NCBI GenBank assembly: GCA_031178355.1
Contig: JAPSJC010000009.1
Span: 1-61,012, forward strand
Source of the DNA: Ureibacillus sp.
GTDB taxonomy: Bacteria; Bacillota; Bacilli; Bacillales_A; Planococcaceae
Length of the DNA stretch: 61,012 nt
Direction: 5' to 3'
Part shown: positions 39,475 to 43,421 of the stretch, in pieces
Layout: each line of letters begins with the position of its first letter
Numbering within the stretch: the first letter of the stretch is position 1
Notes under the pieces: generated by a model
The model's input: the letters and a program-made list of their open reading frames with translations, nothing else
Database searches by the model: none
What the model was told of the DNA's origin: nothing
Position numbers and translations under genes: made by a program

Positions 39475-41142
39475 TTAAACTTCCATAATGATTGGTAAAA
39501 TCATTGGTCGTCGTTTTGTTTTTTCAAATAAATAAGGACCTAAAACGTCGTTTATTTCATTTTTCAGTTCAGTCCACTGAGTTGATTTTTCTTGAATCAT
39601 TCCATTTAAATGAATGGATAACATTTTTTGTGCTTCACTAATCATTGTACCTGATTCACGCATATATACGAATCCTCGTGAAATAATATCAGGTCCTGCA
39701 ACAACTTTTTGTTTTTTCATATCAACACTAACAACGACGATTACTAAGCCTTCCTCAGAAAGGATACGACGGTCTCTTAAGACAATATTTCCAATATCTC
39801 CAATACCACTTCCGTCAATATAAACATCTCCAGAAGGTAGGCGACCAGCTACATGTGCATCGTTTGGACTTAATGCAAGTACGTCACCATTTTCCATGAC
39901 AAAAGTATTTTCTACAGGAACGTCACAGTCAACGGCTAAGTGAGTATGCATTTTTAGCATGCGATATTCACCATGTATTGGCATGAAATATTTCGGTTTA
40001 ATTAATCGAAGCATTAGCTTTTGTTCTTCTTGAGAACCGTGACCAGAAGTATGGATATTATTTAAAGAACCATGAATAACTTCTGCACCGGCTCTGAACA
40101 ATAAGTTGATAATTTTATTTACACTTGTTGTATTACCAGGAATTGGTGAAGAAGAAAATACAACTGTATCTCCTGGCTGAATTTGGATTTGTCTATGTGT
40201 ACCATTTGCAATACGTGAAAGAGCAGCCATAGGTTCTCCTTGAGAGCCTGTACATAAAATCATAACTTCATTAGCAGGAAGTCGATTGATTGCCTGTGCA
40301 TCTACAAATGTTTCTTTAGGAGCTGTAATGTAACCAAGTTCACGGCCAATTGTAATAGCGTTATCCATTGAACGACCAAAAACAGCGATTTTACGTCCGT
40401 ATTGTGCAGCAGCATCAGTTACTTGTTGTAATCGATGGATATTTGAAGCGAAAGTAGCAAAAATAATACGTCCTTCTACTTTTCTAAAAATATCATGGAT
40501 ACTTTCTCCAACTTTTCTTTCAGACATTGTGAAATTCGGAACTTCTGCATTCGTACTATCAGATAGTAAACATAGCACACCATCGCGACCGATTTCCGCC
40601 ATTTTTGTTATATTTGCTGGCTCGCCAACCGGTGTAAAATCAAACTTAAAGTCCCCTGTATGAACAATGTTCCCAGGTGGTGTTTTAACTACAATCCCGA
40701 AAGCATCTGGAATACTATGTGTAGTACGGAAAAAGCTCACAGATGTTTTGCGGAATTTAATAATGTCTTCTTCTTTAATTTCGATTAATTTCGTGGAACG
40801 TAGTAATCCATGTTCTTCTAACTTATTGCGTAATAGACCTAATGCTAATTTACCGCCATAAACAGGAATATTCACTTGACGCAATAAATAAGGAATGCCC
40901 CCAATATGATCTTCGTGACCATGGGTAATGAATAGACCTTTAATTTTGTCTGCATTACGTACTAAATAAGTGTAATCTGGTATTACGTAATCAATTCCCA
41001 ACAGATCATCCTCTGGAAATTTAATACCAGCATCAATTACGATAATTTCGTCTTGGAATTGAACTGCATATGTGTTTTTACCAATTTCGCCCAGTCCGCC
41101 AAGCGCGAAAACGGCTGCTTGATCATTTTTTACAAATTTCAT
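39475..41142 (-). CDS. rnjA: Ribonuclease J1
   Basis: A 555-residue metallo-beta-lactamase/beta-CASP nuclease, with both 5'-to-3' exo- and endonuclease activity in mRNA decay and rRNA maturation. The metal motif HGHEDHIGG is near residue 74 and HTGDFKFD near residue 163. The beta-CASP motifs include [19 protein letters not shown] and SSSPIPGN, with HTSGHG near residue 368. The length is identical to the family norm. It follows rpoY with 5 bp spacing, the arrangement conserved across Bacillales. Confidence 0.97.
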
Positions 41143-41147
41143 GTTAA

Positions 41148-41357
41148 TTAAGCATTCTCCAATCGGAAATTAGGGCTATTTTTTTCATAATCTAAATAAT
41201 TACCCTCTAATAATTGAATGTATTCAATATTGTAGTTACGGTCTTTTAAATATTGGCGTACTTCTCGTTCCGAAGAAGCTTCTAAATAAAGACTTTTTGT
41301 GTTTTCGCGGACTGGTACTTCGTGTGCATTTTCTTGAAAATAAACTTTGTAAATCAT
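41148..41357 (-). CDS. rpoY: RNA polymerase epsilon subunit (RpoY/YkzG)
   Basis: A 69-residue protein of the RpoY family (formerly DUF1447), the small epsilon subunit of RNA polymerase in Firmicutes. Characteristic segments are [10 protein letters not shown] at the start and [26 protein letters not shown] precedes the ATG. It is immediately upstream of rnjA, the usual operon. Confidence 0.95.
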
Positions 41358-41640
41358 ATTCTCTCTCCTTTAATACGAACATTTTGCATTTTTCACTCAC
41401 TGTTATAAATGTGAATCTAACTAATTCAAATTAGTTGAACGTTACTTTTCAAAACAATCTGTACAAGTTGCAGATTCACTAATTATATAACTTTGTTGAG
41501 ATTTCGGTTAATTTTTACAAAATCTTATAAGAACAATATACAACAATTTAGTATGATAAAAATGTTGGGAAATCTTCTAAACAAAGTTAAAAATAAAATG
41601 CATTTCCTTTATATTATCATGTGACTGATTTAAAATAAAG

Positions 41641-41666
41641 AAAAGCCCTTCTAATAGAAGGGCTTA
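41641..41666 (-). terminator. Terminator of the small cationic peptide gene
   Basis: AAGCCCTTCT pairs perfectly with AGAAGGGCTT around AAT. Read on the minus strand it is followed by TTTTCTTTATTTT and overlaps the peptide's stop codon. Confidence 0.85.
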
Positions 41667-41735
41667 AGCGATAGATTTTTTTCCGAGGATGCCATTTAAT
41701 CGTTTCAAAATTCTCTTTTTGAGTCGTTTTAACAT
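41664..41735 (-). CDS. 23-residue cationic amphipathic peptide, undescribed
   Basis: A complete short gene: ATG at 41735 with AGGGAG nine bases before it, 23 codons, and a stop inside the stem of a terminator. The peptide starts MLKRLKKRILKRL and ends GKKSIA. It has nine Lys/Arg and no Asp/Glu. Hydrophobic residues at 2, 5, 9, 10, 13, 16 and 17 line one face of an ideal helix, so an amphipathic membrane- or nucleic-acid-binding helix is expected. It could resemble SpoVM-like membrane-curvature peptides, cationic antimicrobial or signalling peptides, or leaderless bacteriocin-like molecules, but it matches none that I know. It lies between rpoY and ykrA. Confidence 0.6.
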   Translation of the reverse strand: MLKRLKKRILKRLNGILGKKSIA

Positions 41736-41756
41736 GGCACATCACTCCCTATATTC

Positions 41757-41785
41757 ATTATATTGGAGACGTATTTATACGTAAA
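41757..41785 (-). promoter_or_regulatory. Sigma-A promoter of the small peptide gene
   Basis: On the minus strand TTTACG (41785-41780), 17 bases and a perfect TATAAT (41762-41757). The expected start near 41750 leaves a leader of only about 15 nt holding just the ribosome site. A 14-bp palindrome, ACGTATTTATACGT (41769-41782), overlaps the -35 and spacer and could be an operator. Confidence 0.65.
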
Positions 41786-41829
41786 GTGTTTTTCGTTTGC
41801 TTTTAATTATACATGGAAAGGATTAGGCT

Positions 41830-42600
41830 ATGACTAAAATATTGTTTTTTGATATAGATGGTACGCTATATAACAGTGAGAAGAAAATACCCCAATCTTC
41901 AAAAGAGGCTATTTTACAAGCGAGGGCTAATGGTTATGAGATTGCTATAGCAACAGGTCGTGCACCGTTTATGATCCAACAGGTAATAGAGGAACTAGAA
42001 ATTGATACATACGTTACATTTAATGGTCAATATGTTGTATTTAAAGGTGAAGTGATATTTACAGACGGTGTACCAAAACATCAGCTCTCGGAAATTATTC
42101 ATTTTGGTCACGAAAGAAATCATCCAGTTGTATTTATTGATGATAAAAAAATGATTGCATCTGTTGAAGAAGACTCTTTTATACTAGAAAGCCTTCATAC
42201 GTTAAAGCATCCATACCCTGTTATAGATCCTTTATTCTATGAGGAAAACAATGTATATCAAACATTAATCTTTATGGAAGAAAATGATGAACCACTTTAT
42301 GTTGAACGATTCCCTGAAGTCAAATTTGTGCGTTGGCATCCATATTCTTGCGATATTCTTCCTAAAGATGGTTCAAAGGCGAGAGGAATACAAAAGCTTC
42401 TCCAAAAAATGAACATACCAATATCAAATGTTTATGCATTTGGCGATGGGTTGAACGATATTGAAATGTTACAAGCGGTAGGTGTAGGTGTTGCAATGGG
42501 AAATGCACATGAAAAAACAAAAGCCGTTGCGGATGTGATTGCTGATCATGTAGATGAAGATGGTCTTGCAAAAATATTAAAAGATTTAAAAATAATTTAA
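41830..42600 (+). CDS. ykrA: Cof-type HAD superfamily phosphatase (YkrA)
   Basis: A 256-residue Cof/HAD-IIB hydrolase. Motif I is FFDIDGTLYNS (residues 6-16), motif II is ATGRAPF, and motif III/IV is KDGSKARGI plus FGDGLNDIEML near residue 207. Such enzymes dephosphorylate sugar phosphates, nucleotides or cofactors such as FMN. The position beside rpoY-rnjA and def is that of ykrA in B. subtilis. GGAAAGGATTAGG provides the ribosome site. Confidence 0.9.
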   Translation: MTKILFFDIDGTLYNSEKKIPQSSKEAILQARANGYEIAIATGRAPFMIQQVIEELEIDTYVTFNGQYVVFKGEVIFTDGVPKHQLSEIIHFGHERNHPVVFIDDKKMIASVEEDSFILESLHTLKHPYPVIDPLFYEENNVYQTLIFMEENDEPLYVERFPEVKFVRWHPYSCDILPKDGSKARGIQKLLQKMNIPISNVYAFGDGLNDIEMLQAVGVGVAMGNAHEKTKAVADVIADHVDEDGLAKILKDLKII

Positions 42601-42619
42601 TTATACTTATATTATAAGC

Positions 42620-42653
42620 AAGGAGATGCCTTTTACTTGGGCATCTCCTTTAA
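42620..42653. terminator. Terminator hairpin 1 between ykrA and def
   Basis: AAGGAGATGCC pairs perfectly with GGCATCTCCTT around TTTTACTTG, T-rich after on both strands. It is closely similar to a second hairpin at 42778. Confidence 0.85.
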
Positions 42654-42777
42654 TTACTTTTATCACAGATAAGTTTGCAATTATATGTGGAGTGATATAC
42701 CATCTCTCGAGCACAATTTTGACGCGCTTATTAAAATTATCTCGACACTACATTACCGCGAGAATTCTATATATTAG

Positions 42778-42815
42778 AAAAAGAGATGCCTTTTAGTAAG
42801 GCATCTCTTTTATTT
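42778..42815. terminator. Terminator hairpin 2 between ykrA and def
   Basis: AAAAGAGATGCC pairs with GGCATCTCTTTT around TTTTAGTAA. It shares nearly the whole stem and the loop start with hairpin 1. The 263-bp gap between convergent ykrA and def otherwise shows nothing. Confidence 0.85.
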
Positions 42816-42863
42816 CTAAATTAAATACTCTCTATAGTTCTAAAGTATCGTGGTGAAAAATTT

Positions 42864-43421
42864 TTATTTTTCACCAAAAGGTATAGCGTCAGGAACAGGC
42901 TCAAATGGATTTTCTTCGTTAATATGATCGTAGAACATAACGCCATTTAAGTGATCTAATTCATGTTGAAAAGCTATAGCTGGTAAACCGTTTAAACGCA
43001 TTTTTTGCTCTTGCCCATCAACATTGAAGAATTTCACAGTTATTCTTGCGTAACGCGGGACGTAGCCAGGAACTGTTCGATCAACAGATAAACATCCTTC
43101 ACCTGTAGTAAGATAAGTTTTTTCAACGGAATGACTAGCGATTTTAGGGTTGATAGCAACAAAACTTAAAAGTTCGCCTTTTTCGTTTTCTAAATGTAAG
43201 GCGAACATCCGCTTTAATGAATTCACTTGGTTAGCAGCAAGCCCAATTCCAGGACGTAAACCGTATTTTTCAGCTGTTTCTGGGTTTTGACTATTAATTA
43301 AATACTCTAACATATCTGTAGCTAACTTTTTATCTTCTTCCGTTAAAGGGAATTTAACTTCTTCGGCTTTTATTCTCAAAGAAGGATGACCTTCACGAAT
43401 GATATGTTCCATTAAAATCAT
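42864..43421 (-). CDS. def: Peptide deformylase
   Basis: A 185-residue metal-dependent deformylase that removes formyl from the N-terminal Met of new proteins. All three motifs are present: GIGLAANQV (motif 1), EGCLSV with the metal Cys (motif 2), and the HELDH motif in FQHELDHLNGVMFYD (motif 3). The length and insertions match the type II enzyme DefB/YkrB. The frame reaches 43442, but AAGGAAGAAG fits the ATG at 43421. It is convergent with ykrA and divergent from pdhA. Confidence 0.96.
   Translation of the reverse strand: MILMEHIIREGHPSLRIKAEEVKFPLTEEDKKLATDMLEYLINSQNPETAEKYGLRPGIGLAANQVNSLKRMFALHLENEKGELLSFVAINPKIASHSVEKTYLTTGEGCLSVDRTVPGYVPRYARITVKFFNVDGQEQKMRLNGLPAIAFQHELDHLNGVMFYDHINEENPFEPVPDAIPFGEK

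Follow-up and report, generated by a model that had tools for sequence, protein, structure and literature searches.

The window, a 61,012-nucleotide stretch of Ureibacillus sp. DNA, carries a 23-codon gene on its minus strand between the rpoY-rnjA pair and a gene for a HAD hydrolase. The promoter, ribosome site, 23-codon frame and terminator starting at the stop that the initial annotation placed here are all found on this strand, and no gene overlaps the frame (41735-41664). In translation the product has nine lysine or arginine residues and no aspartate or glutamate, so the cationic character ascribed to it at the outset is clear. The features of the locus are the following.

39475-41142, minus strand: rnjA, ribonuclease J1 (PF22505, PF17770; the name J1 is given by homology and place)
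41148-41357, minus strand: rpoY, RNA polymerase epsilon subunit (PF07288, E 3.3e-30), the constant downstream neighbor
41611-41639, minus strand: separate promoter-like element of rpoY-rnjA, TTTATT-N14-TGATAATAT, with an extended -10
41643-41665, minus strand: intrinsic terminator of the peptide gene, AAGCCCTTCT-ATT-AGAAGGGCTT, a 10-bp stem with a 3-nt loop, then a T-rich tail
41664-41735, minus strand: 23-codon peptide gene, ATG to TAA, product MLKRLKKRILKRLNGILGKKSIA
41741-41749, minus strand: ribosome site of the peptide gene, GGGAGTGAT (AAGGAGTGAT and AAGGAGATGATC in relatives)
41757-41785, minus strand: sigma-A-type promoter of the peptide gene, TTTACG-17-TATAAT, 10 of 12 consensus matches
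41769-41782, no strand assigned: imperfect 14-nt inverted repeat ACGTATAAATACGT, overlapping the -35
41830-42600, plus strand: HAD hydrolase gene (ykrA-like; PF08282, E 4.7e-67), the divergent upstream neighbor, often but not always kept

The terminator stem (41665-41643) overlaps the end of the frame and thus begins within the stop codon. The segment 41770-41635 folds better than 200 of 200 shuffles (z -3.79). From the stop codon to rpoY the distance is 306 nt in the window and 104-660 nt among the loci listed in a DNA-pattern scan, which is described below. A long hairpin with arms GTGAATCT...AGATTCAC (-18.9 kcal/mol, z -3.14) lies in the rpoY leader at 41484-41408 on the minus strand.

Distribution of the gene and its place upstream of rpoY

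A protein search with E up to 1 matched the peptide in 38 of 61 genomes, comprising 24 of 25 from the same genus (the window's own counted), 11 of 12 from the family's other genera and three weak matches outside. The sole same-genus genome without a match, G010, has no rpoY match either. When the family was searched with a profile, 192 of 200 genomes matched, the window's own again counted; the total is 192 rather than 193 because the match in G032 (E 0.12) has no frame at the locus. The weakest of the 192 is a 25-residue form in G148 (E 0.0034), and position at the rpoY locus was checked in part of these genomes. In the genus of G349, taken to be Bacillus, 39 of 41 genomes match, the exceptions being G471 and G504. 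One chromosome of this genus (4,215,606 bases, presumably that of B. subtilis 168) encodes the peptide MLRKLRKKLRRQWNGMLRKKAIA at 1525122-1525190 on the minus strand, where a terminator-like hairpin at the stop is followed by what, judged by eye, is an rpoY-like start, MIYKVFYQEK.

Across the class (299 genomes, 124 of which have rpoY), a profile built partly from loci already found beside rpoY gave 52 matches with E ≤ 5.3e-4. Each of these, like one further match at E 0.016, has rpoY 94-398 nt downstream in the same orientation. Nine more class-wide matches listed (E ≥ 0.0079) are at other places and look like chance. A degenerate DNA pattern, blind to rpoY and run over named GTDB genomes, returned at least 119 loci, including Bacillus mojavensis, Bacillus inaquosorum, Cytobacillus, Neobacillus, Mesobacillus, Anoxybacillus and Heyndrickxia, as well as Priestia koreensis, Domibacillus, Jeotgalibacillus, Sporosarcina, Planococcus, Psychrobacillus and Caryophanon. 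In 115 of the 119 loci listed, rpoY follows in the same orientation, and the other four stop too early (L114, L125, L150 and L182 end before rpoY and were excluded from the rpoY count; the duplicate L197 was counted once). Among the listed loci with at least 1.2 kb available downstream, rpoY was found in 104 of 104. Upstream of the peptide gene, a HAD match occurs within 1.5 kb in 65 of 92 testable loci listed, and def in 76 of 92. The small-protein gene is inherited vertically and is common to Bacillaceae and Caryophanaceae. The constancy of its neighborhood can also stem from slow rearrangement.

The frame is absent from seven family genomes in which rpoY is present, namely G074 and G032 (g9), G075, G091, G114 and G123 (g10), and G089 (g7); other g10 and g7 genomes retain it. 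The four g10 genomes (L237-L240) have a TTAGC...GCTAA hairpin where the frame would be, about 195-75 nt before rpoY, and, by eye, both promoter and terminator are retained around this non-coding hairpin. G089 retains the terminator, and the loss at L236 was judged from the ORF list alone. Regions that keep the hairpin and have lost the frame, named in the initial annotation as evidence against a gene, give a mixed picture: five inspected family loci keep the terminator, four of them also the promoter, as against the 192 of 200 genomes that match the frame. Given seven losses, four of which leave promoter and terminator in place, the gene is dispensable in places and its transcript can outlive the frame. 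Among 20 rpoY regions that were inspected, chosen mostly where the profile gave no match, a homologue is absent in 14 and present in six, so neither RpoY nor RNase J1 needs the peptide in general. The peptide is a clade-specific component that is occasionally dispensable.

Some variants score poorly and nonetheless remain in frame: the forms in L231, L232 and L234 have 25 residues, and that in L235 starts with TTG. C-terminally extended forms of 32-45 residues occur in two lineages (L092-L094 and L108). In the first of these, the core is followed by a shared [IV]PTT motif. The charges of extended forms differ (+7 to +13 in the filtered set). A link to sporulation was also considered. Spo0A is present in 20 of 22 genomes, and the frame is missing both from g10 and g7 genomes that have Spo0A and from two g9 genomes that do not. 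Spo0A does not follow the presence of the frame across these 22 genomes, and such a link appears doubtful.

Selection on the peptide and conservation of its expression signals

Compared with 23 same-genus loci, the frame in the window has a pS of 0.192 and a pN of 0.022 (pN/pS 0.11). A broader set of 101 loci was assembled from the best-scoring matches of protein or profile searches alone; it comprises 87 distinct DNAs and 39 distinct peptides. Here, where no codon pattern was used, the entropies at codon positions 1 to 3 are 0.68, 0.53 and 1.39. The 489 close pairs in this set give a pN/pS of 0.125. These values replace those from the loci found with the DNA pattern, which fixes nine positions as basic-type and several as hydrophobic-type codons, requires K20, A23 and the stop, and leaves third positions free. 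Such demands inflate the codon entropy, the column conservation and the ratio from 1922 pairs (0.143) in that set, as well as the charge (+8 to +10) and the hydrophobic moment (three-quarters of 103 peptides beat 95% of shuffles); the helix figures are weaker in the repeat on the 101 loci.

As a control, 37 mechanically called ORFs of 20-60 codons in 40167-43235 were followed through the same-genus loci, and only two are kept in 23 of 23. One is the peptide frame. The other, 40529-40663, is antisense to rnjA and has a ratio of 0.08, a low value that we tentatively ascribe to its register over the rnjA wobble positions. A second frame that overlaps the peptide gene (41617-41745) is kept in 10 loci and has a ratio of 0.82. 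What selection maintains here is the peptide, not the RNA.

The signals around the frame are conserved as well. Over 181 regions, the best promoter score upstream of the frame averages 9.85, compared with 7.26 in shuffles. Of the 164 regions that score at least 9, 148 have the end of the -10 at 21-23 nt from the ATG. GGAG is found near the start codon at 99 of 101 loci. A terminator-like hairpin lies within 100 nt past the stop at 161 of 181 loci versus 25 of 181 shuffles, with a median offset of 6 nt. Conservation, codon-level selection and the conserved promoter, strong ribosome site and terminator together support the initial view of a real, self-contained small gene.

Behind the terminator, an element with an extended -10 shape, TTTATT-N14-TGNTAWTAT, occurs in 57 of 68 same-family loci, in 39 of 139 other loci and in none of the shuffles. 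In the window it lies at 41639-41611 on the minus strand, and judging from its form and place it is likely the own promoter of rpoY-rnjA. A generic promoter score in short spacers before rpoY (32 loci) is at chance level, 8.06 versus 7.73, and the separate rpoY promoter consequently rests on the conserved TTTATT-N14-TGNTAWTAT block. At L006, L007, L009 and L012 the terminator after the frame differs in sequence, and the rpoY element starts 128-152 nt after the stop. In many family loci the element is followed by AAAGGAAATGCA.

The 14-bp palindrome reported over the -35 is present as ACGTATAAATACGT, in the form of two 6-bp arms around AA. A function for it is not supported: the window is the only one of 24 same-genus loci that carries it, and it was rejected as an operator. 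A different inverted repeat, ATGTAAA-N9..11-TTTACAT, covers the -35 of this gene in 20 of these 24 loci (it is absent from the window, L005, L018 and L019), in 6 of 183 others and in 0 of 4800 shuffles. This repeat is a possible candidate operator.

Properties of the peptide and searches for known families

The 39 distinct peptides of the 101 loci have net charges of +7 to +10, the range of the unextended forms, with L045 and L090 at +7. M1, L5, K20 and A23 are invariant among them, and position 13 is leucine in 32 and tryptophan in the other seven. Their mean hydrophobic moment over residues 1-18 reaches its maximum, 0.659, at 95 degrees, a helix-like period that fits an alpha helix. Taken singly, 17 of the 39 have a larger moment than 95% of shuffles of the same peptide (median 0.068). 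The moment of the window peptide is reached by 1476 of 20000 shuffles, which leaves it below the 95% mark. The helix with its hydrophobic residues on one face that had been proposed for the window peptide shows in the mean of the 39 and stays short of that mark in the window peptide by itself; we regard an amphipathic helix as moderately supported. On the Eisenberg scale, the window peptide has a low mean hydrophobicity, -0.26.

The window peptide matches no Pfam family at E up to 10, and five variants gave only one match, to DUF5302, below the cut-off (E 0.26). No match was found in NCBIfam for 19 members, in PHROGs for three peptides, or in Rfam for the window and for the peptide transcript in four relatives. 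Searches against PDB sequences returned two weak matches in each of two cases (best E 0.37 and 0.66) and none in a third, which is chance level. None of five peptide strings was found in open-access text; the literature searched, PMC11780869 included, yielded no description of the peptide or its gene. That there is no described family, as first claimed, holds for Pfam, NCBIfam, PHROGs, Rfam, PDB sequences and the literature searched, and we read the peptide as a new small-protein family without counterpart in these libraries.

Some published material touches on the locus. The neighbor ykrA is listed in tables of RosA- or RoxS-responsive proteins or genes (PMC8216469, PMC10433868), which is uninformative on the peptide. 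Dozens of unannotated short coding ORFs were predicted in B. subtilis small RNAs in a 2017 study (PMC5521070), and the peptide frame may be among them. The peptide RNA may further appear under a segment name in catalogues of strain 168 transcripts. In Ureibacillus manganicus, two copies of the Bacillaceae-1 RNA (RF01690) flank the peptide gene (L164, 3472-3539 and 6919-6981); no copy reaches the threshold in the window.

Candidate roles of the product

So, what might a peptide of this kind do? We consider it probable that two things hold together: a gene with its own conserved promoter, usually a terminator, peptide-level selection and a place upstream of rpoY-rnjA, and a product that acts in trans as a cationic helix. 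Inside the cell, the product would probably form a short cationic helix, presumably an amphipathic one, that docks on an anionic partner through its charge and its leucine/tryptophan face. More tentatively, this partner could be RNA or an RNA-protein machine that serves transcription, translation or decay, such as RNase J1, RNA polymerase or the ribosome. We prefer RNA to a membrane as the partner because the mean hydrophobicity is low, because the charge stays in a narrow range despite interchange of lysine and arginine, and because the neighbors are rpoY and rnjA; the preference is an argument from composition and neighborhood. It is more doubtful, going by sequence and place, that the peptide would be, in Bacillaceae and Caryophanaceae, a dedicated miniature partner of the products of its neighbor genes, a clamp of 23 residues that grips RNase J1, RNA polymerase or their RNA substrates. 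Such a clamp would have been overlooked because it is too small for annotation and routine proteomics.

There is a precedent for a small protein that aids the action of RNase J1. As described in PMC8152036, SR1P of B. subtilis binds GapA and promotes the interaction of GapA with RNase J1, SR7P binds enolase, and the two are encoded by dual-function or antisense RNAs. The peptide resembles them as a small protein from a short transcript, but what is conserved here is the coding sense. An SR1P-like modulator of RNase J1 is a putative role to which only the constant place beside rnjA points.

The alternative that fares best is a membrane-surface peptide, an amphipathic helix that would lie on the inner face of the anionic membrane, like SpoVM, and recruit or sense something. 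SpoVM of Bacillus is a cationic amphipathic helix of about 26 residues that binds curved membranes and is made from a stand-alone tiny gene. The peptide shares with it a tiny free-standing gene and, probably, a single cationic amphipathic helix as the product, while the charge of the peptide is higher and its locus is another. The high charge, the maximum of the mean moment at the alpha-helical period and the leucine or tryptophan that always occupies position 13 would suit a membrane surface, but the low mean hydrophobicity of the window peptide would not. Pfam presumably contains a SpoVM model, and neither the window peptide nor the five variants matched anything there beyond the sub-threshold DUF5302 hit. 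The peptide gene also differs from SpoVM in its sigma-A-type promoter and in losses that do not follow Spo0A, the frame-less g10 and g7 genomes having retained Spo0A, so it is unlikely to be a strict sporulation gene. We regard a membrane role as possible, though on the unlikely side.

Leader-peptide attenuators, too, combine a short frame with a terminator close behind it, upstream of an operon. Translation of the lysine- and arginine-rich frame could accordingly be imagined to control readthrough of the terminator into rpoY-rnjA, and the fixed location ahead of rpoY in the same orientation, the terminator close behind the stop and the nine lysine or arginine codons in the window fit this picture. 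However, rpoY-rnjA has its own promoter-like element past the terminator in most family loci (in fewer of the others, and with the generic score at chance), and the four loci whose terminator differs in sequence have this element well separated from the stop. In addition, synonymous codons are free, and it is the whole peptide that is kept rather than a run of codons, as the contrast of pS with pN indicates. Base pairing between the ribosome site and the frame's end is likewise not under selection. We therefore judge a leader peptide rather improbable.

In the predicted fold of the window transcript, the ribosome site is paired to the end of the frame. An RNA lock of this type was tried and rejected: over 176 loci the mean duplex energy is -5.21, compared with -5.37 after synonymous recoding, and the accessibility of the ribosome site is about equal, 0.338 versus 0.362 (60 of 207 loci).

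A regulatory or dual-function RNA in which the frame is secondary appears quite improbable. The four g10 genomes that retain promoter and terminator around a hairpin instead of the frame speak for such an RNA, but amino acids are held elsewhere while third codon positions vary. The -10 also lies so close to the ATG that there is little 5' leader besides the ribosome site, and Rfam has no match in the window or at the transcript in four relatives.

A toxin, bacteriocin or other secreted antibacterial peptide, including the weapon against rival cells that the initial annotation entertained, is very improbable: the composition is like that of cationic amphipathic antimicrobial peptides, but nearly all genomes of the family carry the gene, as a rule as a single strong match and at a constant chromosomal position, the four neighboring genes checked are housekeeping or hydrolase genes, and a plasmid search returned no match on plasmids. 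A type I toxin fits poorly, as the peptide is not hydrophobic and membrane-spanning (mean hydrophobicity -0.26, charge +7 to +10). So does a bacteriocin; instead of a patchy distribution with immunity or transport genes, the peptide is found in 192 of 200 family genomes with fixed neighbors.

Returning to the preferred reading of a cationic helix that acts in trans, we conclude that the 23-codon gene is probably a real, undescribed component of the cell. A peptide under strong selection in two large families, the B. subtilis group included, and next to rpoY-rnjA at all testable loci would be a core component that is absent from the protein-family libraries searched. Binding to RNase J1 or RNA polymerase would make it a small new partner of long-studied machines; binding to the membrane would make it a helix tied to a housekeeping locus.
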